DNA of 64,000 bases from a virus. This document shows positions 18,005-36,319 of this stretch, one piece after another. A program made the translations under genes and the position numbers. The notes beneath the pieces are model-generated. The model had not been told where the DNA came from. It did not search any database and saw only the letters and a list, made by a program, of their open reading frames with translations. The stretch lies in IMG/VR virus record IMGVR_UViG_3300035183_000733, positions 214,496 through 278,495 of that record. One strand, given 5' to 3'. Every line of letters starts with the position of its first letter. Position 1 is the first letter of the stretch.

Positions 18005-18961
18005 ATGAGGACCCTGCACATAGGATTTACCGTACCCGCACTCTGCAAGGCGTTATCGGACGCATCGAGCGAATACCTGTTCCTCGACTGGACTCTGTGG
18101 ACCTCCGTGCCCAACAACACGGCGGCTCTTCACGCGAAGACGTTAGAGACGGCCGAGCGGTTCAAACCAGACCTGATATTCCTGCACGTGCAATCACCGG
18201 GTGTCTACACGCCGGAGGTGCTCGCCAAGCTACCGGGGTTTAAGGTGAACTGGACCTGGGACTTTCGAAAACTTACGCCTCAGTGGATGATTGATTGTGG
18301 GAGGTCCGTGGACGTAACCGCGTTCACCAACGATGAGGATGTTATGTTCATGCGCGCCCTCGGCATGAACGCCGAGTTCATCCAGAGCGGATTCAACGAT
18401 GATATATTCAGGCCAGACGGTGGCGTGGGAGAATACCCACAGATAGTTTTCATGGGCAACAACTACCCAAAGGAAGACTACGATTTCCCCCTGGCAGACT
18501 ATAGAATCAAGATGGTCAACACGCTGTCGTCCAAGTACGGTACAAATTTCGGAGTGTACGGATTCGGGTGGGGTAACGACATGCGTAACTTCATGTACAG
18601 GGAGGCCAAGGAGGCCGAGTGCTACAGGAGCTCTAAGGTGGCCATAAACGTGTCACACTTCGACGCGCTCAGGTACACATCAGACCGCATGCTACGCCTA
18701 ATGGGCAGCGGGGCACTGTGCTTGTCTAAGTGGTACCCCGGCATAGAACTCGATTTTGAAGACAAGATCAATATAAGAGTATGGCACGATTTGGATGAAC
18801 TCGATGAACTTATAGAATACTACCTTGACGAGAGGAACAAGGACGAGAGGATAAGAATATCGCAGGCAGGTTGCGAACTGGTTCACCGCAACTATACGTG
18901 GAACCACATGGCGGACAAAATTAAAAACCTGGTAACTAATGATTCATACGTTCGGAGATAG
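18005..18961 (+). CDS. CgeB-like glycosyltransferase (GT-B fold)
   Basis: A 318-residue protein with an N-terminal Rossmann-like half (DLIFLHVQSPGVYTPEVL) and a C-terminal half holding FMGNNYP, VYGFGWGNDM and MLRLMGSGALCLSKWYPGIE. The last segments match the nucleotide-sugar binding end of CgeB/Glyco_trans_1_2 proteins. This is the first gene of the rightward glycan operon, behind the tandem promoter. It overlaps the SGNH gene by 23 bases. Donor and acceptor sugars cannot be told. Confidence 0.8.
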   Translation: MRTLHIGFTVPALCKALSDASSEYLFLDWTLWTSVPNNTAALHAKTLETAERFKPDLIFLHVQSPGVYTPEVLAKLPGFKVNWTWDFRKLTPQWMIDCGRSVDVTAFTNDEDVMFMRALGMNAEFIQSGFNDDIFRPDGGVGEYPQIVFMGNNYPKEDYDFPLADYRIKMVNTLSSKYGTNFGVYGFGWGNDMRNFMYREAKEAECYRSSKVAINVSHFDALRYTSDRMLRLMGSGALCLSKWYPGIELDFEDKINIRVWHDLDELDELIEYYLDERNKDERIRISQAGCELVHRNYTWNHMADKIKNLVTNDSYVRR

Positions 18962-19523
18962 TCACGCTTGGTTCGCCTGGGACCAGATCGAGGGGGTTTC
19001 TACAAACAGGATAGGACCGATAACGGCGCAGAGTTTCGGCCGTAAGAAATTGGAGATACTGGATATATCCGAGCCGAGGTTCAATGTGGCGCCCGGCGAT
19101 TACGTATGCTTCTCGTTCGGAGAGATAGACTGCAGGTGCCACATAGGCAAATTCAGGTCGAGCAGCAGGATGCTGATGGACAGTATCGCAAAAAATTACT
19201 TCGAGGCCATAAATGCCAACATCGAAAAGATGCCAGGGGTGAAGGTCATGGTGTACAACATCCCTCCGACCCTCAGGAAGGCGGATGCTAAAGAGAACGT
19301 GGATTTCCCATTTTATGGGGAAGATGCGGAGCGCGCAGAGTACATAAGGTACATGAACGAAAGGTACAAAGAACTGTGTGGCGCCAACGATTTCTTATTT
19401 GTGGATGTTTACAATGATTATGCGGACAAATACGGGTTCCTTCAGAAGGAACTTAGCGACAACATGATACACATACAAGACCCTGTGTACATAAGGGAGT
19501 TCGTAAAAAATAATATAGTGTGA
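18939..19523 (+). CDS. SGNH/GDSL-family hydrolase
   Basis: HTFGDSHAWFAW provides block I (Gly-Asp-Ser), FSFGEIDCRCHIG corresponds to the block II/III region, and DNMIHIQD near the C-terminus gives the D-x-x-H catalytic pair. At 194 residues it is a minimal SGNH esterase with no signal peptide, so it acts in the cytoplasm. Located between a glycosyltransferase and an acyl carrier protein, it may acylate or deacylate the glycan or act on an acyl-carrier thioester. Confidence 0.8.
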   Translation: MIHTFGDSHAWFAWDQIEGVSTNRIGPITAQSFGRKKLEILDISEPRFNVAPGDYVCFSFGEIDCRCHIGKFRSSSRMLMDSIAKNYFEAINANIEKMPGVKVMVYNIPPTLRKADAKENVDFPFYGEDAERAEYIRYMNERYKELCGANDFLFVDVYNDYADKYGFLQKELSDNMIHIQDPVYIREFVKNNIV

Positions 19524-19837
19524 TGAAGGATATAATCCTTAACTACATAAAGAAAGAATTCGGTAGTCAAGACCGCAGCGAAAACAGGAGGCACCACTAC
19601 TCGTACTGCTATGCTCCATTTGAGAAGTGTACGTGCAACGATTTGTTCGATGTCAATTATGATACGTCACTGATAAACGGCGGATACATCGACTCGTTTT
19701 CGATGGTGGTCGTGCTGGTGTTCATAGAGAATGAGTTCGACATACAGGTGCCGGACGCTCTCGCGATACCGGAGAACTTTGATACGGTCAATAAAATGGT
19801 GGATCTGATAAAAAGAATAAAAGACAAAGATGAATAA
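19520..19837 (+). CDS. Acyl carrier protein-like
   Basis: GGYIDSFSMVVVLVFIENEF contains the D-S-F/L motif (D58, S59) whose serine carries 4'-phosphopantetheine, followed by FDIQVPDALAIPENFDTVNK, the typical helix II-III region. Before it is an insert of ~30 residues with HHYSYCYAP and CTC, which ordinary ~80-residue carrier proteins lack. The gene overlaps its neighbours by four and eight bases in the glycan operon. It could hold an acyl group for transfer onto a sugar. CoaE at 3365 could support its prosthetic group. Confidence 0.85.
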   Translation: MMKDIILNYIKKEFGSQDRSENRRHHYSYCYAPFEKCTCNDLFDVNYDTSLINGGYIDSFSMVVVLVFIENEFDIQVPDALAIPENFDTVNKMVDLIKRIKDKDE

Positions 19838-20450
19838 GTACTTCGACAAGATATTCTGCGTCAACCTTGATAAGCGTACTGACAAATGGGAACTGTGCCT
19901 GAAGGAATTCGAGCAGGCCGGCATCGACGTCGTACGGTTCTCCGCAGTCGACGGAAGCACCATTGCATTGCCGCCAAACTGTGCAATAACGCCTGGCGAA
20001 GTCGGGTGTTCGCTAAGTCACACCACCATTCTAAAGAGAATGCTGCACGAGGGATGGGAGAGGATTCTGATCCTCGAGGACGACATAGAGTTCTCCGTGC
20101 ACGCGCCGGCCCAGTTCCACCAATGGATCGGTCAGGTGCCTGCCGATTGGGACATGCTGTATCTCGGGGGCAACCACATAGCCCACCCGATACCGGTGAC
20201 GCAAAATGTGTCCAAGATAGTTAGGACGTACACGACGAGCCACTACGGCATAACCAAGAAGATGGCGGCCGAGGTGATAGCAGAGGTGGAGAAGTTCAAA
20301 TCCCAGATAGACGTCACGTATACCGATTTTCAGAAAACACACAACTGCTACGTGTTCAATCCGAGCATAGCGTGGCAGAAGCCGGGGCACAGCGACATAC
20401 AGAACGCATATATGGACTACACCAGACTAATGAAACCTCCAGGACAATAA
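19830..20450 (+). CDS. Glycosyltransferase family 25
   Basis: The start IFCVNLDKRTDKWELCLKEF is the GT25 (LPS beta-galactosyltransferase) opening; RFSAVDGS, GEVGCSLSHTTILKRML and ILILEDDIEF are the other conserved blocks, the last giving the metal-binding acidic pair. The 206 residues are close to the GT25 domain size. It overlaps the carrier-protein gene by eight bases. A second GT25 domain is fused to the enzyme at 23247, so the pathway probably uses two related linkages. Confidence 0.88.
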   Translation: MNKYFDKIFCVNLDKRTDKWELCLKEFEQAGIDVVRFSAVDGSTIALPPNCAITPGEVGCSLSHTTILKRMLHEGWERILILEDDIEFSVHAPAQFHQWIGQVPADWDMLYLGGNHIAHPIPVTQNVSKIVRTYTTSHYGITKKMAAEVIAEVEKFKSQIDVTYTDFQKTHNCYVFNPSIAWQKPGHSDIQNAYMDYTRLMKPPGQ

Positions 20451-21355
20451 TGTATCCACTGATAAACGGCAATAGAAAATTCATACTGTACTGGAACGCG
20501 AGGTGCGCCTGCACGTCTCTCAAAAACTGGTTCTACTTCGTCGACCGCGATACCTACTCGCACGTGGCATTGATAAACGGCAACGGGGTTTCTCTGCCCT
20601 CCAACAGGGTGCACATGGTCGTACCCTACATAGAAATCCCGTTCAAAATATCCAACGACGAAAATTTAAAGGACTACGTAAGCATCCTCGTGACCCGCAA
20701 CCCAGTGGACAGACTTGTGTCGGTTTTGAACCATTCTGTTCTTGAAGTGCTCGGTGTGACAAACCTGAACAAACACAAGATTGAGCGGATGGAGGACCTG
20801 CTGAGGTTTCTGGAAGAACGGGACATGGACTCCAATATAGAGCACCATCTAAATCTGCAGTGCCTGTTTCCGGACAACCACAACTGCCACAAAGGACCGA
20901 TAAGGGACCGGTTCAACCACATACTGCGGATAGAAGACGGCCCTGTCATACCACGAATAAACCAGATCCTCGGCACAAACGTTCCGGACTTCAGGGAGAA
21001 CATATCTGACAAGGACTCGTACGTCCCATTCCCGGAGCAGGTTGAACGAATTAAAAAATTATACGCGTGGGACTACTTCCACTTCTACCCGGACGATGAC
21101 GGCATAATAAACAATTCGTACTACAAGTTCTACCCGTACGAACAACCTTCAGAATACATCCCAAAGTTCGGAGACTGTAACACCGATATAATAATAATGC
21201 AAAACCGAATGATACATCTCGGCATGAACGTGTCCTGCACTGGTGTATACGACGAACAGACAAGAGCGGCCATAATACAGTGGCAATCGGATAACGGCAT
21301 GGACATAACTGGAGAGCTTGACGATAAAACTAAGAAATACATTAGAGGTCTATGA
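20450..21355 (+). CDS. Sulfotransferase-like enzyme with C-terminal peptidoglycan-binding domain
   Basis: NARCACTSLKNWF (residues 16-28) is the 5'-phosphosulfate-binding loop of carbohydrate sulfotransferases (type 'K.ACTSLKN'), and VTRNPVDRLVSVL is the 3'-phosphate block. The last ~72 residues, CNTDIIIMQNRMIHLGMNVS and then YDEQTRAAIIQWQSDNGMD, match a PG_binding_1 domain. The start ATG overlaps the GT25 stop. Sulfation of a glycan with PAPS is the expected activity; why it carries a cell-wall-binding domain is unclear. Confidence 0.8.
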   Translation: MYPLINGNRKFILYWNARCACTSLKNWFYFVDRDTYSHVALINGNGVSLPSNRVHMVVPYIEIPFKISNDENLKDYVSILVTRNPVDRLVSVLNHSVLEVLGVTNLNKHKIERMEDLLRFLEERDMDSNIEHHLNLQCLFPDNHNCHKGPIRDRFNHILRIEDGPVIPRINQILGTNVPDFRENISDKDSYVPFPEQVERIKKLYAWDYFHFYPDDDGIINNSYYKFYPYEQPSEYIPKFGDCNTDIIIMQNRMIHLGMNVSCTGVYDEQTRAAIIQWQSDNGMDITGELDDKTKKYIRGL

Positions 21356-22095
21356 TAACATTCAGCAATCTCGGCAAATACGGCCGCCTCGGCAACCAGA
21401 TGTTCCAGATAGCATCCGTTATTGGAATAGCTCGCGCCAACGGACACGAATACATATTCCCAGAGTGGAAGTACTCACACTACATGAAAAAAGAGCTCCC
21501 TGCCGGAATAGTGCCGGCTACGAAGGTGGACGAGGTAGGGTTTCATTACGGCGAGATAAAGGTCGGCGAGGGCATCTTTGATATTGTAGGATACCTGCAG
21601 TCATGGCGGTACTTCGACAAGTACAAAGAGGAGGCTCTCGGGTACTTCGAGCTAAAGCCAGAGCACGCCGAAAAAATAGACGCGCTCGCGGCATCGTTCG
21701 GAGACAATACCTGTTCTTTGCATATAAGGAGGACGGACTATGTGAATCTGTCGCAACACCATCCGGTCATGCCCATGGCATATTACACCAGGGCTATGGA
21801 GGTGATGGGTGATTGTACGTTTGTCATATTCTCTGACGATATAAACTGGTGTAGGGAGAATTTTGTAGGTAATAAGTTTGTTTTTGTAGACGAGCAGCAC
21901 CCGGACGTATACGACCTGATGTTGATGTCCAAGTGCAAGCACAACGTCATAGCAAACTCGAGCTTCAGCTGGTGGGGCGCGTACCTTAATAAAAACCCCA
22001 ACAAACGAGTTATAGCGCCTGGCAAATGGTTCGGACCTGCGTACGACAACCTCGATACAAAGGACTTGTTGCCAGAGAACTGGTCAAAAATATAA
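21352..22095 (+). CDS. Alpha-1,2-fucosyltransferase-like, GT11
   Basis: GRLGNQMFQIASVIGIARAN near the N-terminus, CSLHIRRTDYV in the middle and ANSSFSWWGAYL near the end are the three GT11 signature blocks; HIRRTDY contains the GDP-fucose-binding arginines. Length 247 is a little short of the usual ~280. It overlaps the sulfotransferase gene by four bases. The enzyme would add fucose from GDP-fucose; no GDP-fucose synthesis gene is in this window, so the donor may come from the host. Confidence 0.88.
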   Translation: MITFSNLGKYGRLGNQMFQIASVIGIARANGHEYIFPEWKYSHYMKKELPAGIVPATKVDEVGFHYGEIKVGEGIFDIVGYLQSWRYFDKYKEEALGYFELKPEHAEKIDALAASFGDNTCSLHIRRTDYVNLSQHHPVMPMAYYTRAMEVMGDCTFVIFSDDINWCRENFVGNKFVFVDEQHPDVYDLMLMSKCKHNVIANSSFSWWGAYLNKNPNKRVIAPGKWFGPAYDNLDTKDLLPENWSKI

Positions 22096-22109
22096 AGAAT
22101 AAATATACT

Positions 22110-22631
22110 ATGCCAATAAAGAAAGATACATTCAAGAAATACCTAAATCCCTGCCTCGTAGAAACGGGTTCTTACATGGGTGATGGTATACAAGGGGCGC
22201 TTGACGCCGGGTTCAAAAGGGTCATATCTATAGAGCTGTCCGAGAAATTCTACAACCACTGCGTTGCAAGATTCAAGGATAATCCAAACGTCAAGATAGT
22301 GCAGGGCGACTCCGCCGACGTGCTATACGATGCGATAAAGGATGTCGATACTCCCATAACGTTCTGGCTCGACGGGCACTGGTCCGCCGGTGAGACTGCG
22401 TACGGCAAGAAGAACTGCCCGCTCATAGAGGAGTTCGAGCAGATCCAGCGGCACGGCATCAAGAACCACATAATTCTCGTGGACGATATGCGCTGCTGGC
22501 AGGTAGAGGACCCGGAGATCAAGTTCGGAGAGAACGACATAAAGGAGAAAATCCTACAAATAAATGAAGGATACAAATTCTCGTACGAGGACGGACACAT
22601 ACCGAATGATATTTTAGTCGCAAAACTATGA
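22110..22631 (+). CDS. SAM-dependent methyltransferase-like protein
   Basis: The start MPIKKDTFKKYLNPCLVETG is chosen because the earlier frame lies inside the fucosyltransferase gene. ETGSYMGDGIQGAL resembles motif I of class I methyltransferases, VISIELSE motif II and VQGDSADV motif III; a later WLDGHWSAGET and IILVDDMRCW resemble small sugar-modifying methyltransferases. A glycan O-methyltransferase role is inferred from the operon. Overlap of four bases with the next gene. Confidence 0.75.
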   Translation: MPIKKDTFKKYLNPCLVETGSYMGDGIQGALDAGFKRVISIELSEKFYNHCVARFKDNPNVKIVQGDSADVLYDAIKDVDTPITFWLDGHWSAGETAYGKKNCPLIEEFEQIQRHGIKNHIILVDDMRCWQVEDPEIKFGENDIKEKILQINEGYKFSYEDGHIPNDILVAKL

Positions 22632-23245
22632 TGACACCAGAACAGCTACACAACCACTTCATGTCGGAGATACGAAGGTGGTTCGACAACAGGGGAGACC
22701 AGACGCACAGGGTAAACTATGCGCTAACGCAGGATTCTGTAGTCATCGATCTCGGCGGGTACGAGGGCAAATGGGGTAAGACCATCAGCGACATGTACGG
22801 ATGCACGATACACGTGTTCGAGCCAGTGGCCTCGTTCTGCCAGAACATCAAAGCGATGTTCGCCAACAGCCCAAAGGTGCACGTTTACCAGACCGCGCTC
22901 GGTCACGAGAAAAGCGATGCAACCATAACGATGTCGGCAGATGGATCGGGCATGTTCGCGGAGGGCGACGAGAAGGTGCCTATAACTATAGACTCGGTGC
23001 ACGAGTTCCTCGCAAACATACAGAAGGTGGACCTGATAAAGATAAACATAGAGGGCGCCGAATACGACCTACTTGACTGCCTGACTACAGATGAACTTTT
23101 GAAGCTCGATAATATTCAAGTACAATTCCATACGTTTTATCCGGAGTGCCAGCAGCGCAGGGACGCTATAAGGACACGCCTATCAAGGACACACGTACTT
23201 ACATACAATTACGATTTTGTTTGGGAAAATTGGAAACTAAAATAA
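22628..23245 (+). CDS. FkbM-family methyltransferase
   Basis: DSVVIDLGGYEGKWGKTISD is the SAM-binding motif I, IHVFEPVASF motif II, and IQKVDLIKINIEGAEYDLL the FkbM hallmark 'D.IKIDIEGAE'. The 205-residue length is right for a bare FkbM domain. These enzymes methylate sugar hydroxyls. It follows another methyltransferase and is followed by a GT10-GT25 fusion. Confidence 0.87.
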   Translation: MMTPEQLHNHFMSEIRRWFDNRGDQTHRVNYALTQDSVVIDLGGYEGKWGKTISDMYGCTIHVFEPVASFCQNIKAMFANSPKVHVYQTALGHEKSDATITMSADGSGMFAEGDEKVPITIDSVHEFLANIQKVDLIKINIEGAEYDLLDCLTTDELLKLDNIQVQFHTFYPECQQRRDAIRTRLSRTHVLTYNYDFVWENWKLK

Positions 23246-23246
23246 C

Positions 23247-24902
23247 ATGGGATATTTCAGCAAACAGTACAAAAGCAAGTTGGTACATTTTGTACAGAAG
23301 AAACTGAACCAGCAACAAAAACAAGAAGAAGTGAGCACACCACAATCACCAGTCAGCCAGGAGGATTTGGATGATTTCAAGCCAGAGCAGGTAGTCGGCA
23401 GCTTGCCGGCTCCGCTAACCCCGCCGGCAACTAAGAAGAAGGTGCCGCTTGCCGACACTCTGTTCGGGCACGTGCCGGACGACAGACGTTATTTCGACTG
23501 GGATCGTAACGTTAACGCGTACAACTATGTGTTCATGACGGATGCGAGCATCAAGAATCACGGGATGTTTAACGGCAAGACTAAGTACGCATGGATGATT
23601 GAGTCACCAGAGATAACAACAGACGAGTATGGGTGGCTTGCTCAGAATGCAACGCAGTTCAACAAGGTATTTACGTTCAAGCGATCATTGCTCGACTCCG
23701 ATCCTGTCAGGTTCAAGTTTGTTCCGGGCGGGTCATGCTGGATAAAGGAGAAGGATTGGGGACTGCACCCCAAGACCAAACTGGTGTCGATGATAACGTC
23801 AAACAAGAACTTCACAAGCGGACATCATCTACGCCACAGAATCGTGCAACGCCTGCGCTCTAAGATTGACTTATACGGGCGCGGGTTCAACGACATACCG
23901 GATAAGATAGAGGGTTTGAAAGATTACATGTTCTCCTTTGCGATAGAGAACACGAAGGAGGATTATTACTTCACGGAGAAGCTGATAGATTGCTTCATGA
24001 CCGGCACTGTTCCGATATACTACGGATGCCCGTCCATTGCTCAGTTCTTTAATCCGAACGGCATAATACAGATAGACAACCTGGCCGAGGCCGAGACGAT
24101 GCTTAACTCCCTGACGCCTGATATGTACCAGAAGATGCTGCCGGCGATAAGGGACAACTATGAGCGCTGCATAAGGCAGTTCCTATCATACGAAGACTTC
24201 ATGTACTTCAACTACCCTGAACTTCTGTTCGGACTCGGGTCTTCTCCAAGTCCATTAAACGATGTGGTGGACGAAGTGTACTGCATAAACCTCGAGAGAA
24301 GGCACGATAGATGGCTCGAGGTTTCTCAGCAATTTGACGTGCACAACATCAAGGTGACGCGCTGGCTTGCGGTGGACGGATGGAAGATCGAGGGCACGCA
24401 CCACATGAGGCACGGAGATATGCAAGGCGACAAGATAAAAGGTGCCGTCGGATGTCTGCGTTCGCATCGCAATGCCATAAAGGACGCGCTCGACAAAGGT
24501 CACAATTCTATATGTGTGTTTGAGGATGACGTTGTACTGCAGCCCGACTTCAACAAAAGATTCGTGAAGCTAATGTCCACTGTTCCCAAAGACTGGGAAA
24601 TGCTGTACATTGGATGCCACTGGCACGGACTACCAAACCCGAGACACATAGGCAATAACGTATATTCGCTCAACTGCTTCGGAGTGTTCGGCGTATTGAT
24701 ACGCGGTCAGCACATGCTACAGAGGATATACGAAGTCACTAAGGGAGAGGAGATGACGCTCGACGATTACCTGTGCTACAGGGTACAACCTGGTCACAAG
24801 GTGTATACGACCATACCATTCTTGGTCAAAGTAAAGGAGGACTTTTCTGATATTGCCAACCAGTTTGCCGACTACAAAATAGTCAGCAAGTATTTCTACT
24901 AA
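23247..24902 (+). CDS. Bifunctional GT10 (fucosyltransferase-like) and GT25 enzyme
   Basis: After a glutamine/proline-rich N-terminal ~70 residues, residues ~75-330 form a GT10 alpha-1,3-fucosyltransferase-like domain: FAIENTKEDYYFTEKLIDCF followed by GTVPIYYGCPSI is the GDP-fucose binding signature. Residues ~340-551 are GT25: VYCINLERRHDRWLEV, LAVDGWKI, AVGCLRSHRNAIKDAL and ICVFEDDVVLQPDF. Two glycosyl additions by one polypeptide are implied. It lies one base after the FkbM gene. Confidence 0.85.
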   Translation: MGYFSKQYKSKLVHFVQKKLNQQQKQEEVSTPQSPVSQEDLDDFKPEQVVGSLPAPLTPPATKKKVPLADTLFGHVPDDRRYFDWDRNVNAYNYVFMTDASIKNHGMFNGKTKYAWMIESPEITTDEYGWLAQNATQFNKVFTFKRSLLDSDPVRFKFVPGGSCWIKEKDWGLHPKTKLVSMITSNKNFTSGHHLRHRIVQRLRSKIDLYGRGFNDIPDKIEGLKDYMFSFAIENTKEDYYFTEKLIDCFMTGTVPIYYGCPSIAQFFNPNGIIQIDNLAEAETMLNSLTPDMYQKMLPAIRDNYERCIRQFLSYEDFMYFNYPELLFGLGSSPSPLNDVVDEVYCINLERRHDRWLEVSQQFDVHNIKVTRWLAVDGWKIEGTHHMRHGDMQGDKIKGAVGCLRSHRNAIKDALDKGHNSICVFEDDVVLQPDFNKRFVKLMSTVPKDWEMLYIGCHWHGLPNPRHIGNNVYSLNCFGVFGVLIRGQHMLQRIYEVTKGEEMTLDDYLCYRVQPGHKVYTTIPFLVKVKEDFSDIANQFADYKIVSKYFY

Positions 24903-24903
24903 T

Positions 24904-25554
24904 ATGAAGACACTCGTTTACTGTGGTATTCATAATTGCAATACCATCATGCAGCTCATAGATAAGTTTGACGTCATCATTGGATTCGATGCTAATCCCC
25001 GAAAGATTGCGCGCGCAGCCAAGATACTCCCACCAAAGGTGAAGAAGGTATTCGGCGCCCTGTGCGACAAAGATACCGGACATATCGAGTTCAACATAAT
25101 GAAGAAGTGGGACGCATCATCATCCATGGGCACGTTCAACCCAGAGTTTCACCACATGAAAGATCCCAACTCGGTGTTATACAATACGGGTATAAAGAAG
25201 TTGAAAGTTCCTTGCATAAACTTGTCAGAGTACCTAAAGCGTCGTGGAATAGAGAAGATAGACCTTCTCGTCACCGATCTACAGGGTATGGACTTGACCG
25301 TACTAAAGACCATGGAGTCTTGGATAAAAGAAAAACGCATTGTGAATATACAATGCGAGGTTGAAAAGGATGACAAGCCAAACATTTACGATGGGCTTGG
25401 CGGCAACAAAATGAAAGATTTCATGGAACTGCTATCTGAAAACTACGACTTCATAGCATACCATACGGTCAACGACTGGTGGGAGGGCGACGGCGTATGG
25501 CGGTTGAAAGGCGTCGACGAACCCATAGAAATCGTGCCAGAGATTATCGAGTAA
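24904..25554 (+). CDS. FkbM-like methyltransferase (last rightward island gene)
   Basis: LVYCGIHNCNTIMQLIDKFD begins a Rossmann fold lacking a canonical glycine-rich loop; IGFDANPRKIARA corresponds to motif II, and KIDLLVTDLQGMDLTVLKTM is the FkbM 'D.IKIDVEG.E' segment with Q/G in place of E/G. Domain size 216 fits FkbM. The degenerate motif I leaves activity uncertain. Its stop overlaps the end of the convergent gene at 25544-25999. Confidence 0.72.
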   Translation: MKTLVYCGIHNCNTIMQLIDKFDVIIGFDANPRKIARAAKILPPKVKKVFGALCDKDTGHIEFNIMKKWDASSSMGTFNPEFHHMKDPNSVLYNTGIKKLKVPCINLSEYLKRRGIEKIDLLVTDLQGMDLTVLKTMESWIKEKRIVNIQCEVEKDDKPNIYDGLGGNKMKDFMELLSENYDFIAYHTVNDWWEGDGVWRLKGVDEPIEIVPEIIE

Positions 25555-25999
25555 AGAACTTGTCGAACGACAATATCTTGCGCTTCTTCTTCTTCTTTGT
25601 CGGTGCAACACTTGGAACGTCACCAGAACCAGTCACGCCTCGAGATGCAAGAACCGGAGCACCCATTCCATTTACTGAATCAACAGTACCGAATCCGGAA
25701 TCTGGTCCAGGACCTCCGCCTTCTCCGTCTTCGCTAACTTCGTGTTTAACTTCGTCGTACTTATTCACGTATCCCTCTTTAACTGGGAACCATCCCTCGT
25801 TCTTGAATTTCTCGAACATTTCGGATTCTGTGACAGCGAGTTCACCGGTCTCCTCGTCGTAGTGCGCGAGGCCTATCGGTTTGTCAAGCTTGAAATACTT
25901 GCCTTCGTCAAGATGTCCAAATTCCCGTATAACTACGGTCTTCTCGTCGAGTTCGGCCGGAAGCTGTGCGAGTAAATCTCTTAGGTCTTTTATGCGCAT
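25544..25999 (-). CDS. Hypothetical protein (151 aa), Gly/Ser-rich C-terminus
   Basis: The first ~80 residues, MRIKDLRDLLAQLPAELDEK then FGHLDEGKYF, look like a small folded domain of the type seen in many phage and bacterial proteins that open with an 'LR.LL..LP' helix. The C-terminal half is low-complexity (GEGGGPGPDS) and ends in a lysine run and FDKFFTR. It overlaps the convergent methyltransferase gene by 11 bases and the upstream GT gene by 10. Confidence 0.6.
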   Translation of the reverse strand: MRIKDLRDLLAQLPAELDEKTVVIREFGHLDEGKYFKLDKPIGLAHYDEETGELAVTESEMFEKFKNEGWFPVKEGYVNKYDEVKHEVSEDGEGGGPGPDSGFGTVDSVNGMGAPVLASRGVTGSGDVPSVAPTKKKKKRKILSFDKFFTR

Positions 26000-27073: not shown

Positions 27074-27080
27074 AACCCAA

Positions 27081-28317: not shown

Positions 28318-29450
28318 ATCTTCTTCTTTTTAGCGCGGTCCTTAATACTATTCAGCGTCTGGCCAAAGCTCTTCTCAACATCGAATTTAACGTTAGATGT
28401 CTTGCGACCGTCCTCCTTATAGGTCCAATCCATCCTTCTTCCCATCGATGCGGAGTGCGAAAACTTTACCTTGGACTTGCTCGCGCGTACAAGCTCGTCG
28501 CGCATCTGCTTTATCTTCTTCATAGTGACCTCGTCTGGTTTGCGGCCATAGAAGTCTTCAAATATCTCCAAGTATATCCTGACTATCTGGTCCTTGTTTA
28601 GACCCGGGCACGTGTTGGCTTCTATAATCCACACCTTGCCTTTCGAGTCGAGACCGAAGTCGAGACCCATAACCTGCAGCTTCAGTTTCTCACAGACAGT
28701 CGGCATGATGGACTCCATCTGCTTCCACACCTTATCGTCGAGGTCCGAGTTCTTTATCTCGACCCACTTATAGCTGCTACGACCGTCAAGTGTTCCCTTC
28801 TTACCAAATAGGTCCTTGCTCGGGAATATGTTGGCACTCTCCCTCAGACTCTTGGCCTTCTCATTTATCGGGATCCTTTCGGCGATGTACACCCTCTTGC
28901 CATTTACGGTTATCACCCTGAATTCCCTCTTCAGATCGAACTTCTCGCTGAACAAATCAAGTTTGAATTCTTCGTCCTCCGGTTTAAAACTGTCAAGTTC
29001 TTCCTTGGTTTTAAATACGGTGATGCCCTCTCCTTTGCTACCATCCTTGGGTTTGGCTATTATGGGGAACTTAAGCTTCGATACGTCCTCTTGCTTGAAC
29101 ACGGTATTCGGCACGAAGTCAAGACCATCCATCGCCTTGTGGAACTCTATCTTGTCGTTGGCGTACTTAAGGTTATCGGGGTGGTTGTATATGTTCTTCT
29201 TTTTGAAAACGCCGCTCTCTATCAGGTCGTATATCTCATCATGATTACCATAGTTGTAAACCGGCAGCTCGGAGTTTATGGAGTCTTTAAAAATACCTGG
29301 CGCCATCACGAGATCGAACAGATTCTCCGCCACACGTCGGACAAGGTGGTCGATGTGACTGAAAGAGAACCGATCCGAGTGCGGAATCAGGTATATTTTC
29401 CGCAAGTCTTTCGGGGTTGCATACTCCCCAAACTTCATCAACTTTTTCAT
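28314..29450 (-). CDS. ATP-grasp enzyme
   Basis: KLKFPIIAKPKDGSKGEGIT (near residue 127) is the ATP-grasp lysine/glycine-rich loop and GLDFGLDSKGKVWIIEANTC (near 263) the metal-binding E-x-N end. The N-terminal ~110 residues form a preATP-grasp domain; the C-terminal ~80 residues are basic. The family joins carboxylates to amines or thiols using ATP; the substrate is unknown. Being coupled to a GT2 gene suggests it modifies a sugar or peptide of the glycan. Confidence 0.78.
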   Translation of the reverse strand: MKKLMKFGEYATPKDLRKIYLIPHSDRFSFSHIDHLVRRVAENLFDLVMAPGIFKDSINSELPVYNYGNHDEIYDLIESGVFKKKNIYNHPDNLKYANDKIEFHKAMDGLDFVPNTVFKQEDVSKLKFPIIAKPKDGSKGEGITVFKTKEELDSFKPEDEEFKLDLFSEKFDLKREFRVITVNGKRVYIAERIPINEKAKSLRESANIFPSKDLFGKKGTLDGRSSYKWVEIKNSDLDDKVWKQMESIMPTVCEKLKLQVMGLDFGLDSKGKVWIIEANTCPGLNKDQIVRIYLEIFEDFYGRKPDEVTMKKIKQMRDELVRASKSKVKFSHSASMGRRMDWTYKEDGRKTSNVKFDVEKSFGQTLNSIKDRAKKKKI

Positions 29451-29511: not shown

Positions 29512-29530
29512 GTTTCTTGAAAGCCGGCGC

Positions 29531-29900: not shown

Positions 29901-32444
29901 TTACGAACATTTCGAACTTCCACACGAAGTACAGGTCAAACACCCCTCCTGGAATATTACAGACTCGGACCCGCAGTCCTTGCACTTCTTATCGGTCGCC
30001 CGAGTGCCGTCCGGGATGTACTTCTTGATCATCCTCTGGATGCCACCCTTCCACGTGGTTATCACCTCGTCATCGAGATTCAATGAAGTGATAAGATCTA
30101 CCACATAAGGCAGGGGCATTCCATGCCTCAGAATTCCTGACAGCATCTTGGCGTAATTCCAGTAATGCGGGTCGAAAGACTTGTTCAACCACTCAACCAC
30201 AACTTCCTCACCCTTGTCCACGTAGATGAAGTCGTACTTTGATCCACTGTCGGTTTTGGTTTTGCGTATACGGCCAGTATCGATCTTTCCGGGCACCTTT
30301 ATGTGCTCGGCCTTACCTGTGAACACTTCATAAGGTCTGCCATCAAACAGCCCAACAAAACCTATCCACTGTTCGCCCTTGTTCATGAACCTGTGAATGT
30401 CGCACTCGAGAGTCTTCGGACGGCGAGGCGCATTATTGTCCTTGGCCTTAGGCTTGTCCTCCTCCTTCTCCTTCTTCTCCACAAGAACTCCGGAACGTGA
30501 CCCGTCCCTGTATATGGTGCAACCCTTGCAGCCGGCCTTCCAAGCCGCGACGTAAACCTCGTTTACGAGTTCCTCCGTCACGTGATTGGGCAGGTTAACC
30601 GTAACCGATATTGAGTGGTCAATCCATTTCTGTATCGCACCCTGCATGTTAACCTTCTCCACCCAGTCAACATCATTAGCCATGGCCTTGTAGTAAGGTG
30701 ACTTCTCAATTACTTTATTGAGCTCCTCGGTAGACATGTGAGCAACCGCATCTGGATCGTATCCGTTGACAATCATCCAGGTTTTGAAGTGGTGGTGGAA
30801 CACGTTATACTCCTCCCAGCTATCTCCGACCTCATCAACGAAATCGACCCTCGCGCTCTTGTCGTTAGGGTTGATCTTCTTACGACGCATGTACGCAGCC
30901 ATGAACGCGCACTCTACACCTGACGTTGTCTGCGTCATCAAAGACACAGTGCCGGTAGGAGCTATGGTCAACAGAGCGATATTTCTACGACCGTACTTGG
31001 CGAGCAATTCGCGCAACTCCGGGTCTGCTTCCTTGAGCCTGTTCAAGAACGGATTGTTGACCTCGAGCTTCTCATCATAAATAGGAAACGCGCCGCGTTC
31101 CTTCGCCATAATTGCCGAACTCTTGTATGCGGATATGGCGAGTGCCTTGTGCACAGACTCGGCAAATGCAGTTGCCTCCTTTGTACCATAACGAAGTCCA
31201 AGCGCTGCAAGCATATCACCCTCGGCCGTAACACCAGTTCCAGTCCTGCGACCATTAGCGCACTTCTGACGAATCTCCTCCCACATAGAAAGCTCGTTGA
31301 ACTTAATCTCTGCGCTCTCTGGATCAGATTTGATTTTGGTTATAATATCATCAATCTTCTCGAGCTCAAGCTCGACAATATTGTCCATCATCCTCTGCGC
31401 TATGCGAACGTGCTTGTCGAACAACTCAAAATCGAAGTAAGCATCCGGAGTGAACGGATTACGAACATACGCATAAAGATTCAAAGCAAGTAATCGGCAA
31501 GAATCGCCAGAACATAATGGCAACTCACCACACGGGTTAGTAGATACGGTCCTGAACCCGAATGCAGAATAGCAATCGGCCGGAGATTCCTTAATGATCT
31601 TATCCCAGAACAAAACGCCCGGCTCCGCAGACTTCCACGCATTATGAATGATCTTCTTCCATAATGCAGCGGCGTCGATCTCCTTGTGAATGCGCCCATC
31701 GCCGTATATCGGCCACTGCTGCTTGTACATCCGGCCCGCAAGTACGGCATCCATGAAATCATCGTGGATCTTCACAGAAACGTTAGCTCCGGTGACCTTC
31801 GTGCTATCCATCTTAGCATCGATGAAAGCCTCGGACTCCGGGTGCCGGATAGAAACGGACAACATAAGTGCCCCACGACGCCCATCCTGCGCGACCTCTC
31901 GGGTTGTGTTCGAATAGCGCTGCATGAATGGAACTATACCAGTGGACGTGATTGCTGCATTATTGACGGCAGTGCCCGCTGGCCTAATGTCGGACAAGTC
32001 CGTGCCCACGCCACAACGCCTCTTCTGTAGCTGTGCAATGCGCTCGTCTATCCTCATGATGCCACCGTAAGAATCACCCATTCCGTCTGGGTTACCAACC
32101 ACGAAACAGTTGGACAAAGAAATCTTCTGCAGGTTGTTGCCGATACCTGCCATCGGGCTGCCTTGAGGTATTATGTACCTGAACCTATCGAGTAGAGAAA
32201 AGAACTCTTCCTCACTCACAGGGTTCGGGAACTTGGCCTCGACCCTGGCGATCTCCGACGCAATCCTACGGTGCATGTCCTCCGGGGTCAGCTCGTAGAT
32301 GTTGCCATCGGAATCCTTCAATGCGTACTTGTTAATCCAAACACTCGCCGCCAACTCGTCGCCACCGAAGTAGCTTTTTGCCTTCTCGAGCACCTCAGCG
32401 TAGCTGTAGGATTTTTTCTCTGTTTTAGTTTCGATTACTTCCAT
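29901..32444 (-). CDS. nrdJ: Class II (adenosylcobalamin-dependent) ribonucleotide reductase
   Basis: An 847-residue reductase: ISLSNCFVVGNPDGMGDSYG gives the first active-site Cys, VSTNPCGELPLCSG the N-x-C-x-E radical centre, and GCKGCTIYRDGSRSGVL the NrdJ-specific loop. The C-terminal zinc ribbon has two C-x2-C pairs (CKDCG, CTSCGS) plus the terminal KCS likely to shuttle electrons. It converts ribonucleotides to deoxyribonucleotides under any oxygen level, using B12. No radical-activase or NrdB partner is needed. No cobalamin riboswitch fits the 54-base upstream gap. Confidence 0.95.
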   Translation of the reverse strand: MEVIETKTEKKSYSYAEVLEKAKSYFGGDELAASVWINKYALKDSDGNIYELTPEDMHRRIASEIARVEAKFPNPVSEEEFFSLLDRFRYIIPQGSPMAGIGNNLQKISLSNCFVVGNPDGMGDSYGGIMRIDERIAQLQKRRCGVGTDLSDIRPAGTAVNNAAITSTGIVPFMQRYSNTTREVAQDGRRGALMLSVSIRHPESEAFIDAKMDSTKVTGANVSVKIHDDFMDAVLAGRMYKQQWPIYGDGRIHKEIDAAALWKKIIHNAWKSAEPGVLFWDKIIKESPADCYSAFGFRTVSTNPCGELPLCSGDSCRLLALNLYAYVRNPFTPDAYFDFELFDKHVRIAQRMMDNIVELELEKIDDIITKIKSDPESAEIKFNELSMWEEIRQKCANGRRTGTGVTAEGDMLAALGLRYGTKEATAFAESVHKALAISAYKSSAIMAKERGAFPIYDEKLEVNNPFLNRLKEADPELRELLAKYGRRNIALLTIAPTGTVSLMTQTTSGVECAFMAAYMRRKKINPNDKSARVDFVDEVGDSWEEYNVFHHHFKTWMIVNGYDPDAVAHMSTEELNKVIEKSPYYKAMANDVDWVEKVNMQGAIQKWIDHSISVTVNLPNHVTEELVNEVYVAAWKAGCKGCTIYRDGSRSGVLVEKKEKEEDKPKAKDNNAPRRPKTLECDIHRFMNKGEQWIGFVGLFDGRPYEVFTGKAEHIKVPGKIDTGRIRKTKTDSGSKYDFIYVDKGEEVVVEWLNKSFDPHYWNYAKMLSGILRHGMPLPYVVDLITSLNLDDEVITTWKGGIQRMIKKYIPDGTRATDKKCKDCGSESVIFQEGCLTCTSCGSSKCS

Positions 32445-32498
32445 CTCTCTTCTGAAAAATTGTTTGTTTTTTTTTATAGAACAATCCCCGAAAAAGTC

Positions 32499-34421
32499 TC
32501 ACTTTCTTTCGGGCAGCTCTGTATATATTTCCGCATCTTTTAAGATTTCCAAAACACCCGCAACTACCTCATTTGGAGTCACAAAGGCTGATTTATCTAA
32601 GGCAACATCGCGCCACCATCTGAACTGGTCCGGGCGCAAATATTCTCTTGATTTTAAGAGGTTTAGGTGGATGGAATGTCCAAAAATTTTTGGGTCCGAC
32701 TTCGAAAAAATAACCACACCTTTTTTGTTGTGGTACGCTGCAAAATGAGGGAAGAACGAGTCCACCGACACGAACGTATCGCATGCGTTGAGGATCTTTA
32801 GGAGTTTATCGGGCGCCGCGTTCAGTATGACTTCGTCGCATCCGACCAACTTCTCGCCAGCAACACCTACCTGTATGGTGTAAGCGCCGAGTGCGCGAAG
32901 CATGCCAACCACCTCCGGCCAGTCCTGGTAATTCTTGGCGTTTTCCATCCCCGGCAACTTAGCAGCCCATGGGGCTATCACTATGACTTTACCATCGAGT
33001 GAGCCCTTCTCGAAATCCGATACATCAGGAGTCAACTCTAACTTTGGTTCATTGCTCGGGATAGTATCAACGCTGGATGTCATCCCAGCGAACTTGATAG
33101 CGAGGTCGAACCTCCTCTCTGCGGTAACTGTCACCTTCGCTATTGTATCGACGAGTTCGTCAGGGCCGCCAAATAACTCGTTGACGCACCTGACAACACC
33201 CGGCCAGTCGCGCTCGAAGTAGTCGTGAAACATTATCACGGCGCCGTCCTTCAGCTTGGGCAGGTAGTTCTTTACATCGTTCATGACCGACTCGTAATCG
33301 TGCATGCTATCTATGAATATGAAGTCGAACTCGTCGTTCTTCAGCAACTGGTGCACGTTCTGCGACATACCAATGAGCGGTGTGACGTTGTTGAGATGCG
33401 CGGTGTTCCTTGCGAAATCAACGTAGGTGGTGAGCGACTGCATCTGAGTCTGTCCGCCGTTGTCCGCCTTGAACGTGTCTATGCACACGATGCTCGTCGC
33501 CTTCGGCGCCATAAAACAAGCGCTCTTGCCCTTGTACGAGCCTATCTCTATACATCTGCGGCCCTCGGCGTTTTTTGCGAGGAACTCGCCCTCCGCCCTG
33601 GAGAGCCATCCCTCGACATTCATTGGATCTTGTAAATTCATCTTCCGTTGTATTCTTAATTTAGCGGCATGCGAGTCCTCTGCCGTATAGTACGAGCCCG
33701 TGCTCTTCCATGTGTAGATTATGCTCGGCTTCTTTGCGTGTACGTGTTTGACCCGATACTTCGCGGCAACGCGCAACCAGTACTCCCAGTCCTCCATCGG
33801 GACGGCATCCTCGGAGAACTGACCGACGTCTATACACTCCCTCTTCATGACCACGGTTGATATGAAGATATAATTGCCCTGCTTGAGCAACTCATAATCG
33901 AACTCCTCCGGATTCGGTATGCCGAATATCTGCAAAGGCTCGCCCTTCTCGTTCTCGCACTCGACGTTCGAATACACCATATCATACCCGTCATCAATGG
34001 CCTGCAAGCTACGGGCCAGGTGCCATGGGAACCACATGTCGTCGCTATCACAAAATGCCACGTGAGTGAAAGCTTCCGGCGTGTTGTCCAAACTCCTTAT
34101 GTACTCGAGTGCAACATTTCGTGCAGCGGCCGGTCCGCGGCCGCTGCCATTAAGGATTACGAGCCTCCGAGTGTGCTCTTGCACGATACTCTCGAGAAGT
34201 TCCCGGCTCCCGTCGGTGGCTCCGTCGTCGATGGCGAGAAGTATAATCTCGTTCGGACCGCGCATCTCGGTGGGGTTCAATGCCACGGCGGCGGACCTGA
34301 GAATTAGGCTGTTGCCATCCGCGTCTTTGGTATTCTTGAACGGCATGACTATTGCAATGCGTCCGGCAAAATACGGCGGATCTGGCTTGTCGCATCTCTG
34401 GCTCTCAATATCATTTATCAT
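32499..34421 (-). CDS. Three-domain enzyme: GT2, class I methyltransferase, GT9-like
   Basis: Residues ~20-250 are a GT2 domain (AIVMPFKNTKDADGNSLILR, then AFCDSDDMWFPWHL as the D-x-D region, and PMEDWEYWLRVA). Residues ~275-450 are a Methyltransf_24-type domain (RRCIEIGSYKGKSACFMAP; FDFIFIDSMHDYESVM). Residues ~475-640 resemble a GT9/heptosyltransferase half (VIVIAPWAAKLPGMENAK; CDTFVSVDSFFPHFAAYH). One polypeptide would add a sugar, methylate it and possibly extend it. It overlaps the next upstream gene by four bases. Confidence 0.8.
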   Translation of the reverse strand: MINDIESQRCDKPDPPYFAGRIAIVMPFKNTKDADGNSLILRSAAVALNPTEMRGPNEIILLAIDDGATDGSRELLESIVQEHTRRLVILNGSGRGPAAARNVALEYIRSLDNTPEAFTHVAFCDSDDMWFPWHLARSLQAIDDGYDMVYSNVECENEKGEPLQIFGIPNPEEFDYELLKQGNYIFISTVVMKRECIDVGQFSEDAVPMEDWEYWLRVAAKYRVKHVHAKKPSIIYTWKSTGSYYTAEDSHAAKLRIQRKMNLQDPMNVEGWLSRAEGEFLAKNAEGRRCIEIGSYKGKSACFMAPKATSIVCIDTFKADNGGQTQMQSLTTYVDFARNTAHLNNVTPLIGMSQNVHQLLKNDEFDFIFIDSMHDYESVMNDVKNYLPKLKDGAVIMFHDYFERDWPGVVRCVNELFGGPDELVDTIAKVTVTAERRFDLAIKFAGMTSSVDTIPSNEPKLELTPDVSDFEKGSLDGKVIVIAPWAAKLPGMENAKNYQDWPEVVGMLRALGAYTIQVGVAGEKLVGCDEVILNAAPDKLLKILNACDTFVSVDSFFPHFAAYHNKKGVVIFSKSDPKIFGHSIHLNLLKSREYLRPDQFRWWRDVALDKSAFVTPNEVVAGVLEILKDAEIYTELPERK

Positions 34422-36319
34422 GACCAGGCCCTCCCCTTCACGTAAAGCTCCCTGAATGCGTCGAGCAACGTACCGTTCCAGTTCTCTTCAACCCCGAACT
34501 GATACACGTTCATCTTGCTAATACGTTTTTCGTCGAACATCTGCTTGGCGTCCGCGATGCTCATCAGATCCACGCCGGAATCGTCGAACACGTGGGGGAA
34601 GCACGCAGCTATGGTTATGCGGTCATCCGGGTACTTGGCCTTGACCTCTGGTAGAATCATCTTAAAGCTCCAGTGATCTCCGAGCCCGCAATCGAGAACG
34701 ATATATCTGCGTCCCTTCAGCTTCACCCCCCACTCCTCCATCTTGCGCCTGAATACGGCCTCGTCGGCCTCCCATAGTTTGGAATCGTCGAAACTGCGTA
34801 TTCCACCCACGGTCTCCCTCAAATGATGAGTCACGGCAGAGCGGTCTATCAGGAGCTGCCACCCCGCACGTTTCATCTCGTGCGTGAATATAGTCTCCTC
34901 CCTGTGGCCAACTGTAGACAGCTCCTTACAGTACCCGTGCGCGGCTGCCACCTTCCTGAACACGAAGGTGCTGTACAGATGGTCTGCCGGTATAATGCCA
35001 GTTCCGACAGACCACTGTATGTTGCTGGACGAGCATATCTCCGATATTTTTGTGGAGCAAGGGCCGGGCACATTCTGCCCCGGAGTCGGGACGCTGCCCC
35101 CAACGGCGCCTACCCCTTCGTCGAAGCATGCCATCAGTTTCTCGAGGACATCCGGCTCGGCGGAGTTGTCGTCGTCGAGCCTCCATAGAAACTCGGTGCC
35201 CGCCATGTCGATGGCCTTCTGGTGGTTTAGCACCTGACCCTTTCCCTCGCCGAACACCACGTCCCAATTTATGCCGGCATCGAGGAGCATCTTGAACAGA
35301 TGCTGGTATACGCTGTACTTGCGCAGGTCGACCGGCTTCTCGTTGTAGTCGTCCATGAATATGATCAGACGCTTTGGCTTCAGCTTCTGGTTTATCACTG
35401 ACATTATGGCGAGCGGCAGCGTTGAGAAGTACCTGCCCCTGGTAGATATGTAGCAGGTCACGTCCGCGTGCGTAGCGTAATAAGCATTCTTGGTGCGATG
35501 CTCCAACAGCTTCATGCGCCTCTCGAACTTCTCCTCCCAACCGGCCACCTCTGAGTGAACCGTCGCCTCGCCGACGTGGTAGATCGGGTACGACGTGACG
35601 TAATCGCCGGCCGTCGGACCGTCGTCCGGCACACACACGCACCTGTACCCGTTCTTCTCGAGCCTCATGCAGAAATCGATGTCCTCTCCGCCACCGGGGT
35701 TGAACGTCTCGTCAAGGTATCCGATCTCATAGAACGTCCGGCGCCTTATCATGGCGAGGAAGAATATCACGAATGGCCTGCCCGTCTCCTTGGACATTAT
35801 CTTCTTTGGGCCGGTGATGCCGACGGTCGGGTCGAGGTCAAACGGCTCGCGGAGCATCTCGAGCCACTTGCCGTCCTTGCCCCACTCGAGAACCTGCGCA
35901 TCGTTGTTCATTAGAACCACGAACTCGCCCCTGGCGAGCCCCAACCCTATGTTAACTGCAACGGTGTATCCGAGCGGCTCGTCGATCTCGACTATCCTTA
36001 TGCGATACCCGTCCGCGTAATGCGGCGCCTCCCTCGCGTAATCGACGGTTCCGTCGGTGCAGCCGTTCGCCACGACTATCACCTCGGCGTCGCCGGATAC
36101 GAGCAGGTCCTTGGTCGACGTAATAACCGAATCGAGGCACGGCTTGAAGCAGTCCTCGAAGTGGTTGTACGTCGGTATTATTATTGAGTATTTGGGCAGC
36201 TTGACCCTTTCGAATTCTACCATACCATCTATTACCGGCGGATCGCCCATTTGTCGCGGGTCCCTAAAAAAAAATGACGAAACGGCGCTTCGGCCGAAAC
36301 AAAAGTTCGAAACGCGCAT
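34418..36319 (-). CDS. Tandem GT2 glycosyltransferase with C-terminal GT-B-like part
   Basis: The first GT2 domain (YSIIIPTYNHFEDCFKPCLD; GEFVVLMNNDAQVLEWG; GGGEDIDFCMRLEKNG) is followed by a second (CYISTRGRYFSTLPLAIMSV; FLWRLDDDNSAEPDVLEK; GHREETIFTHEMKRAGW). The last ~100 residues, RRYIVLDCGLGDHWSFKMIL, look like a GT9-type fragment. The start is uncertain: the first 32 residues look like non-coding sequence, so a start at 36250 or 36223 is possible. It heads the leftward half of the island. Confidence 0.8.
   Translation of the reverse strand: MRVSNFCFGRSAVSSFFFRDPRQMGDPPVIDGMVEFERVKLPKYSIIIPTYNHFEDCFKPCLDSVITSTKDLLVSGDAEVIVVANGCTDGTVDYAREAPHYADGYRIRIVEIDEPLGYTVAVNIGLGLARGEFVVLMNNDAQVLEWGKDGKWLEMLREPFDLDPTVGITGPKKIMSKETGRPFVIFFLAMIRRRTFYEIGYLDETFNPGGGEDIDFCMRLEKNGYRCVCVPDDGPTAGDYVTSYPIYHVGEATVHSEVAGWEEKFERRMKLLEHRTKNAYYATHADVTCYISTRGRYFSTLPLAIMSVINQKLKPKRLIIFMDDYNEKPVDLRKYSVYQHLFKMLLDAGINWDVVFGEGKGQVLNHQKAIDMAGTEFLWRLDDDNSAEPDVLEKLMACFDEGVGAVGGSVPTPGQNVPGPCSTKISEICSSSNIQWSVGTGIIPADHLYSTFVFRKVAAAHGYCKELSTVGHREETIFTHEMKRAGWQLLIDRSAVTHHLRETVGGIRSFDDSKLWEADEAVFRRKMEEWGVKLKGRRYIVLDCGLGDHWSFKMILPEVKAKYPDDRITIAACFPHVFDDSGVDLMSIADAKQMFDEKRISKMNVYQFGVEENWNGTLLDAFRELYVKGRAWS

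Follow-up and report, generated by a model that had tools for sequence, protein, structure and literature searches.

A putative glycan-building gene island beside the baseplate operon of an uncultured jumbo phage, with a conserved core and an exchanged decoration module

Phages with proven virion glycans are few, and mycobacteriophages that glycosylate their virions reportedly do so with a few glycosyltransferases (GTs). Here we describe an 18-kb island (positions 18005-36319) with genes for a putative decorated glycan, lying in a 64,000-nt window that covers positions 214,496-278,495 of the 373,759-bp IMG/VR virus record IMGVR_UViG_3300035183_000733 (the whole record is called G000). To judge from passages citing Freeman et al. 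2023, mycobacteriophages resemble it in encoding their own GTs, with glycans on capsid and tail-tube subunits; the island differs in its 11 GT domains, several of them fused, its methyl- and sulfotransferases, its acyl-carrier-protein (ACP)-like protein and the adenosine 5'-phosphosulfate (APS) kinase of the same genome, all known here from genes alone. The lipopolysaccharide (LPS) or capsule clusters of cyanophages such as P-SSM2, as far as passages of PMC7824862 describe them, are likewise large, rich in GTs and variable in content among relatives, but they carry NAD epimerases and other sugar-nucleotide enzymes, whereas G000 has no Epimerase match, its cluster lies on the baseplate side and its GTs are fused. 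In domain architecture the island can be likened to chlorovirus PBCV-1 A111/114R, a virus-coded multidomain GT; according to passages of PMC7826918, PBCV-1 places an atypical glycan on its major capsid protein without host organelles, and it is a eukaryotic virus with a known glycan structure, while our locus is read from its genes. Moraphages, large phages of aquatic habitats whose core includes four ortholog groups of GTs, also resemble it; the passages of PMC12619734 on them assign no function to these GTs and describe no baseplate-linked island. Finally, Methylophilaceae phage P19250A has a GT2 and GT9-like pair (genes 0025/0026) 38-40% identical to its counterparts in the island and close behind a tail-fibre-family gene; these are two small separate genes rather than parts of two large fusions, and the annotation shows no decoration module.

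Phage-encoded glycan clusters (in passages of PMC7824862) and virion glycosylation (in those of PMC12619734) are each already known. A description of a baseplate-linked glycan island was not met in the literature searched, with subscription papers largely outside the search, and what appears new is the combination of a conserved fused core, an exchanged decoration module, a baseplate-side place and a sulfate-donor gene. The account we prefer, with moderate confidence, is that the island enzymes glycosylate the phage's own virion, and the resulting glycan is probably unusual and sulfated. If this is true, huge phages show that a glycan on the particle can evolve as a trait of the phage, and the locus offers a concrete set of genes, namely the core GTs, the GT2/GT9 pair also found in P19250A, which has a named bacterial host, and an APS kinase and a sulfotransferase in one genome.

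Enzymes of the island and supply of donors

The preliminary description of this DNA had listed GTs of families GT2, GT10, GT11 and GT25 (twice), a CgeB-like GT, a sulfotransferase and methyltransferases in two convergent operons. Pfam bears out these assignments, which confirms the island at the level of predicted proteins (Table 1), and the two strands indeed meet at ~25,550, with plus-strand genes that overlap by a few bases or are separated by gaps within 11 bases, as in an operon. Pfam and PHROGs searches covered chosen proteins among the open reading frames, and Pfam took the sulfotransferase and the methyltransferase-like gene in longer forms (starts 20372 and 22026) than those listed (20447 and 22107). 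By Pfam, motifs and fold together, the 11 GT domains fall in 8 proteins (CgeB-like, GT25, GT11, GT10+GT25, GT2+GT9 with a methyltransferase between, GT2+GT2, GT2-like and GT-A fold), 8 of the domains being over Pfam cut-offs, 1 recognised via its fold (GT-A, pLDDT 93) and 2 weak; the multidomain fusions in Pfam are GT2-GT2, GT2-methyltransferase-GT9 and GT10-GT25. Three methyltransferase domains exceed the Pfam cut-off and one more is recognised from its motif alone. The esterase and ACP of the earlier list find SGNH/GDSL-like and ACP-like matches with GDS and DSF motifs, although both stay below the curated cut-off. Its ATP-grasp enzyme is present but probably not a functional member of the glycan system, and a class II ribonucleotide reductase and a GIY-YIG/NUMOD3 homing endonuclease had been left out.

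Table 1. Features of the island and its surroundings, in window coordinates; values are E-values unless stated otherwise.
Feature	Position	Strand	Length	Evidence and remarks
Baseplate/tail operon (anchor)	8798..14691	-		beside the island; PHROGs baseplate protein 2.6e-16 at 8798-9571
35-bp tandem duplication	17928..17998	+		divergent gap before plus operon; each copy TTGGTGAG-3 bases-TATATAATA, promoter-like
CgeB-like glycosyltransferase	18005..18961	+	318 aa	Pfam Glyco_trans_1_2 1.8e-18
SGNH/GDSL-like esterase or acyltransferase	18939..19523	+	194 aa	Pfam Lipase_GDSL_2 3.2e-6, 28.2 bits vs cut-off 32.9; GDS, GEID, DNMIH motifs
ACP-like protein	19520..19837	+	105 aa	Pfam PP-binding 0.0051, below cut-off; DSF attachment motif
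GT25 glycosyltransferase	19830..20450	+	206 aa	Pfam 2.2e-15; ILEDD motif; 51% identical in G001
Sulfotransferase with C-terminal PG_binding_1, one frame	20447..21355	+	302 aa from ATG 20447	Sulfotransfer_2 2.4e-7; PG_binding_1 5.3e-10
GT11 glycosyltransferase, fucosyltransferase type	21352..22095	+	247 aa	Pfam 2.7e-24; HIRRTD, SSFSWW; homologues in G001, L014, L020
Class I methyltransferase-like, weak	22107..22631	+	174 aa	ETGSYMG motif alone
FkbM-type methyltransferase	22628..23245	+	205 aa	Pfam 1.2e-8; 38% identical in G001
GT10-GT25 fusion	23247..24902	+	551 aa	Pfam GT10 7.7e-13, GT25 9.6e-13
Second FkbM-type methyltransferase	24904..25554	+	216 aa	Pfam 5.5e-11
Small conserved protein	25544..25999	-	151 aa	44% over 91 aa in G001; 43% over 72 aa in L046
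GT-A fold glycosyltransferase (predicted fold)	25990..26772	-	260 aa	MDVDE motif
GIY-YIG/NUMOD3 homing endonuclease, two frames	26783..27621	-		between two GT genes; Pfam GIY-YIG 1e-8, NUMOD3 8.7e-10; GC 36%
GT2-like glycosyltransferase	27631..28317	-	228 aa	EDDD motif; Pfam GT2 0.0024, below cut-off; 51% identical in G001
ATP-grasp enzyme	28314..29450	-	378 aa	Pfam ATPgrasp_YheCD 2.3e-9
Class II (B12) ribonucleotide reductase	29901..32444	-		NrdJ_Z 7.8e-164; not glycan-related
GT2-methyltransferase-GT9 C-half fusion	32499..34421	-	640 aa	Pfam 1.3e-12, 2.6e-19, 0.0054 (GT9 below cut-off)
GT2-GT2 fusion	34418..36319	-	633 aa	Pfam 4.2e-27, two stretches; 46.5% identical over 600 columns in G001

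Inactive motifs had been named as a finding that would speak against a working glycan system. Instead, the known motifs of GT10, GT11, GT25, GT2, sulfotransferase, FkbM, SGNH and ACP proteins are all intact in the island enzymes, as judged by the patterns usual for these families. GT10 and GT11 are families best known as fucosyltransferases, and the GT10 part carries ENTKEDYYFTEKL at residue 234, of the EN...DYYFTEKL type that we take to be the donor motif of GT10 fucosyltransferases. The nearest solved relatives of the GT10-GT25 fusion are an alpha-1,3-fucosyltransferase (1.1e-11), a procollagen galactosyltransferase (6.8e-10) and a 'putative glycosyltransferase R655' (6.1e-7). Solved-structure searches with the sulfotransferase, GT11 and CgeB-like proteins gave no match, and the methyltransferase-like protein at 22107-22631 has neither a significant Pfam family nor a solved relative. 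The GT gene at 25990-26772 has no GT match in Pfam or NCBIfam; an AlphaFold2 model built from 10 aligned relatives (predicted local distance difference test, pLDDT, 93.4) predicts a GT-A fold with a DxD-type motif. Foldseek placed TarS (2.6e-8) and SunS (5.4e-8) on top and SpsA at rank 10, with E running from 2.6e-8 to 1.1e-6 over these ranks, and VIA-align gave ThuS at Z 14.6 with a root-mean-square deviation of 4.0 over 184 aligned residues. Because nucleotidyltransferases score just 2-3 Z lower than GTs in the VIA-align list, the GT assignment leans jointly on Foldseek rank, the MDVDE motif and gene context.

The sulfotransferase has two motifs, RCACTS and RNPVDRLVS, that resemble those of a 3'-phosphoadenosine 5'-phosphosulfate (PAPS) site. 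It is fused to a peptidoglycan-binding domain, and nothing like the fused protein turned up in 50,697 phage records. A gene at 325,082-325,660 of G000 encodes an APS kinase (PF01583, 9.2e-67), to which 24 solved APS kinases or fusions match at E up to 1e-20 (best 6.8e-55), and directly precedes the terminase gene and the tail sheath (phrog_34521, 1.5e-127). Such kinases are rare in phages (matches in 5 of 50,697 records); the kinase occurs in 1 of 5 records and Sulfotransfer_2 in 1 of 12 compared, and both are the same record, G000. The NAD-epimerase family (Epimerase) has no match in the whole of G000 and is present in a 482-kb relative (G001), so that the sugar donors of G000 must be host-made or come from families outside those tried.

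Hypermodification of DNA has also been reported for virus GTs (Pyle et al. 2024, as cited in passages of PMC12619734), and GTs that glycosylate phage DNA bases against restriction would be another reading of the island. A thymidylate-synthase-family protein of G000 (G000:C1:291020-292126; L052:321-1427) has PFDIASY, with Asp at a site that is Asn in both synthases compared, and that of record G002 shows the same change, while G001 encodes a CMP/dCMP 5-hydroxymethylase-like protein (L053:4242-5135; best solved match 3.4e-20) not far from a thymidylate synthase of ordinary appearance. We assume that an Asn-to-Asp change in this family shifts the substrate to dCMP, which would hint at a modified cytosine in the phage group. 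The G000 protein, however, keeps IWNEW and has thymidylate synthases as its best solved matches, which presumably makes methylation likelier than hydroxymethylation. Tet_JBP had no match in 7 records, though its positive control was silent too, and a sulfotransferase, an ACP and many GTs are more than a base needs. We regard DNA glycosylation as very unlikely here.

Conserved core and exchanged decoration module

By its genes the phage belongs with the jumbo myophages of the Lak/PAU/MaF61 kind. Its tail-side gene 12958-14691 has matches in 31 of 50,697 phage records, from Prevotella (Lak), Tenacibaculum, Sphingomonas PAU, Chryseobacterium, Flavobacterium and uncultured phages, and the relatives include PAU, pT24, PTm1, MaF61, MA9V and Lak phages; the best-covered matches of its tail-sheath gene are LR756500, MaF61, other uncultured huge phages and Lak phages. 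The island DNA itself has no megablast match among the same 50,697 records. Gain and loss among related phages, which the preliminary description had proposed to compare, could be followed in G001 and in further loci or contigs of relatives (L-numbers below). At the level of predicted proteins, this comparison showed that the plus-strand decoration module is swapped between relatives while the minus-strand core is conserved.

A syntenic island lies at ~88.7-108.2 kb of G001. The core order of GT2-GT2, GT2-methyltransferase-GT9, reductase, ATP-grasp, GT2, GT-A and the small protein 25544 is kept there and in L046, a 42-kb contig in which it runs up to the contig end, which falls in CgeB. L027 has a partial core (GT2-GT2, GT2..GT9, reductase and a weaker ATP-grasp match). 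Between the window and G001, protein identity is 39-54% in the GT core, with the GT9 part at 54%, a level comparable to the 41-67% of the tail-side genes at 8798-16701. The plus-strand genes that are shared (CgeB, GT25, GT11, FkbM, GT10) are 29-51% identical; CgeB (47%) sits at a different position in G001 and is fused there to a second GT-like domain. Five plus-strand genes (those for SGNH, ACP and the sulfotransferase, 22107, and the second FkbM gene) gave no match at 1e-3 in the 60 kb of G001 searched, where genes for a GDP-mannose dehydratase (GMD, 4.7e-111), a DegT aminotransferase (3.2e-17), a hexapeptide acetyltransferase (6.6e-11), a cupin-like protein (by eye) and the CgeB-GT fusion take their place. 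With intact motifs, a core order kept at 39-54% identity and an APS kinase in the genome, the earlier proposal of a complex decorated glycan made by the phage itself is a well-supported prediction.

The exchanged plus-strand module would also suit a mixed accessory island, in which genes for several targets (virion, host glycan or host protein) collected by recombination at a tolerant spot, as would the unrelated reductase and homing endonuclease within the stretch and the displaced CgeB gene of G001. The tight plus-strand operon with its overlapping genes and the core order kept in relatives argue against such an origin, which we consider rather improbable.

Two further observations concern single core genes. 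A relative of the 25990 protein at ~27% identity was found in all 15 matched Lak records (e.g. MK250024.1:331517-332206; in Lak-B5 within a 683-aa frame); its membership in a similar island was rejected, as no other island probe matched around it in Lak-B5. On the minus strand, G000:C1:357058-357141 is 82% identical to residues 2-29 of the GT2-GT2 fusion and contains a stop, possibly a copied gene start.

Place beside the baseplate operon and the probable target

The island borders on gene 17283 (guanylate kinase), beyond which lie 16701 and 16096 and then the baseplate operon, in which 12350-12958 has a weak tail-sheath match (0.0016 in PHROGs); a structure model of gene 12958 reached a pLDDT of 44.9 and was not used. 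We surveyed 27 loci around the tail gene with probes from the window, G001, L014 and L020 only, which unrelated glycan genes would escape. Glycan probes matched upstream in 11 loci. Of the 16 without such a match, 13 do have sequence there, but in L019, L023 and L024 it is almost lacking. Among the 16 loci with anchor gene 16701, glycan genes lie upstream at the equivalent place in 11 from 6 lineages (G001; L007; L010/L011; L012-L016; L020; L025), no glycan probe matched upstream in four (L005, L017, L021, L051) and L019 is too short to tell. These loci are not all independent, as L012-L016 are near-identical, L010 and L011 are alike and L005 and L017 have an identical tail-gene match. The upstream genes of L014 encode a pyruvyl transferase, GT11, an Fcl-like epimerase, GMD, a SIS (KdsD-like) protein, a KdsA-like protein, GT2 and a methyltransferase, and those of L020 additionally include a 2OG-Fe(II) oxygenase. 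Genes of the GDP-fucose type (GMD, Fcl-like) and of the 3-deoxy-D-manno-octulosonic acid (Kdo) type (SIS/KdsD-like, KdsA-like) were seen near the baseplate operon in varying sets in L014:3206-6482, L020, L010-L013 and L025.

The GTs of the island have relatives in small phages, where these lie among virion genes. Besides G001, the 25990 protein has relatives in 9 contigs, with a 27631 relative nearby in 5 of the 9; in small phages they sit among terminase, portal, tape-measure and head-protease genes. PHROGs confirmed structural neighbours in 6 of 7 tested loci (L037, L038, L039, L040, L042, L045), a test that left out L043 and L044 and, for the GT2/GT9 pair, L028 and L030. In P19250A, L029 and L031, two separate genes side by side are relatives of the second GT2 and of the GT9 part; in L029 and L031 they lie between head protease and portal genes, and both tested loci of this pair (L029 and L031) have virion neighbours (major head, portal). 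Because such relatives travel as separate genes among virion genes, the island fusions look like grown versions of GT pairs. A 2OG-Fe(II) oxygenase adjoins GTs in L038, L045 and L020, which would fit glycosylation of a hydroxylated residue. In L029, an unrelated phage contig, a UDP-galactopyranose mutase gene (L029:5399-6496; GLF 2.5e-77) lies beside the major head gene.

Alternatively, the GTs could act on host lipid-linked intermediates that the host flips and exports, remodelling the host envelope (LPS, capsule, O-antigen) against superinfecting phages during infection or pseudolysogeny. Large jumbo-cyanophage GT clusters, including the 15-gene cluster of P-SSM2, were read as outer-polysaccharide modification by Iyer et al. 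2021 in the passages of PMC7824862 on them, and the GMD, Fcl-like, KdsD-like and KdsA-like genes at the equivalent place in distant relatives as well as the peptidoglycan-binding domain on the sulfotransferase point the same way. Against this, the lipid-carrier initiating sugar transferase (PF02397) and the Wzx flippase (PF01943) were found in none of 5 records in a search confined to these two export families (controls positive in 9 and 13 of 14 genomes), though host machinery could fill in. The island has no clear membrane protein either: 19 of its 20 proteins stay under the transmembrane-like hydropathy of 1.6 and the ACP-like protein peaks at 1.83. Its enzymes are thus predicted to be soluble, to act in the cytoplasm and to have no own route of export via a lipid carrier. 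The place of the island next to baseplate genes also speaks for another target, as does the company that relatives of its GTs keep with virion genes in small phages, and we consider envelope remodelling unlikely. Virion and cell surface had both been named at the outset; the balance now leans to the virion by place, by GT relatives in head and tail clusters and because neither an initiating transferase nor a flippase was found.

The gap before the plus-strand operon holds a promoter-like tandem element. Searched as TTGGTGN2-6ATATAA, the element TTGGTGAG-(2-3)-TATATAATA occurs three times in the 373,759-bp record, twice before the plus operon and once before 12958-14691, with 0.04 expected from window shuffles for a pattern that was defined after the fact. 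As a sign of shared expression with 12958 it can be given little weight.

Several points weigh against a virion glycan. The phage is uncultured and no glycan has been observed; the peptidoglycan-binding domain on the sulfotransferase is unexplained, and Kdo- and fucose-pathway genes at the equivalent place in distant relatives also suit work on the host envelope. The pairing of APS kinase and sulfotransferase is not strict, because LR756500, one of the five phage records matched by the kinase, has no match to the island sulfotransferase. Probe searches found no such island at that place in the isolated phages MaF61, PAU and PTm1 or in LR756500. Since virion genes fill a large share of small genomes, the neighbourhood of GT relatives there is weaker evidence, and the three neighbour proteins tested in L036 had no structural match in PHROGs. 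As for the promoter-like element, two other places in the window reach an equal or almost equal score when set against that 60-bp stretch upstream, G001 lacks the element and the five upstream regions compared share no stretch of at least 11 bases.

If the enzymes do act on the virion, a decorated oligosaccharide would be assembled in the host cytoplasm during particle assembly, directly on at least one virion protein as the presumed acceptor. Initiating and extending GTs (GT25, CgeB-like, GT2 and GT-A 25990) would build the chain from host nucleotide sugars, in a presumed choice of sugars and order of steps, and GT10 and GT11 would attach branch sugars. FkbM and the other methyltransferases may cap hydroxyls, the sulfotransferase would transfer sulfate from PAPS made partly via the phage APS kinase, and the SGNH and ACP-like proteins may attach or trim an acyl group. 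The purpose would be to hide or alter the particle surface, with decoration genes swapped among relatives like antigens. More tentatively, the locus might be a bacteriophage counterpart of chlorovirus-style autonomous glycosylation, in which a jumbo-phage lineage uses a fixed baseplate-side locus with a conserved fused-GT core, an exchangeable cassette and its own help with the sulfate donor to make a species-specific sulfated, methylated and branched particle glycan that diversifies like an antigen locus.

Other genes in and around the island

The ATP-grasp gene is probably tied to the reductase and not to the glycan. In LR756500 an ATP-grasp relative (27% identical) comes after the reductase and no GT was recognised by eye in the surrounding open reading frames, for which reason we doubt a role as a sugar enzyme and read reductase and ATP-grasp as an older pair around which GT genes gathered. 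A bacterial source of the ATP-grasp gene was not found in a search of genome contigs. ATP-grasp proteins and some neighbours have short N-termini rich in F-E-x-[FY]-like patterns that by eye resemble T4-type capsid-targeting sequences (window 28314-29450; L033:3659-5284 and 5952-6587; L046:9998-11146; L060:14794-15783). At the site of the homing endonuclease, G001 and L046 have another gene.

Elsewhere in the record, L056:8689-12519 (G000:C1:326688-330518) encodes a 1276-aa terminase whose internal helicase-loader, primase and endonuclease family matches suggest, by eye, an intein. Window 47818-49921 (+) holds genes for an OmpA-like protein and then an ABC-type permease (BPD_transp_1, 3.3e-5) and an ABC ATPase (1e-25), which is unusual for a phage. 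At 51124-51904 (+), an 18-bp array of 43 copies (~66% GC) encodes a hexapeptide-repeat, beta-helix-like stretch in a gene ending at 52152.

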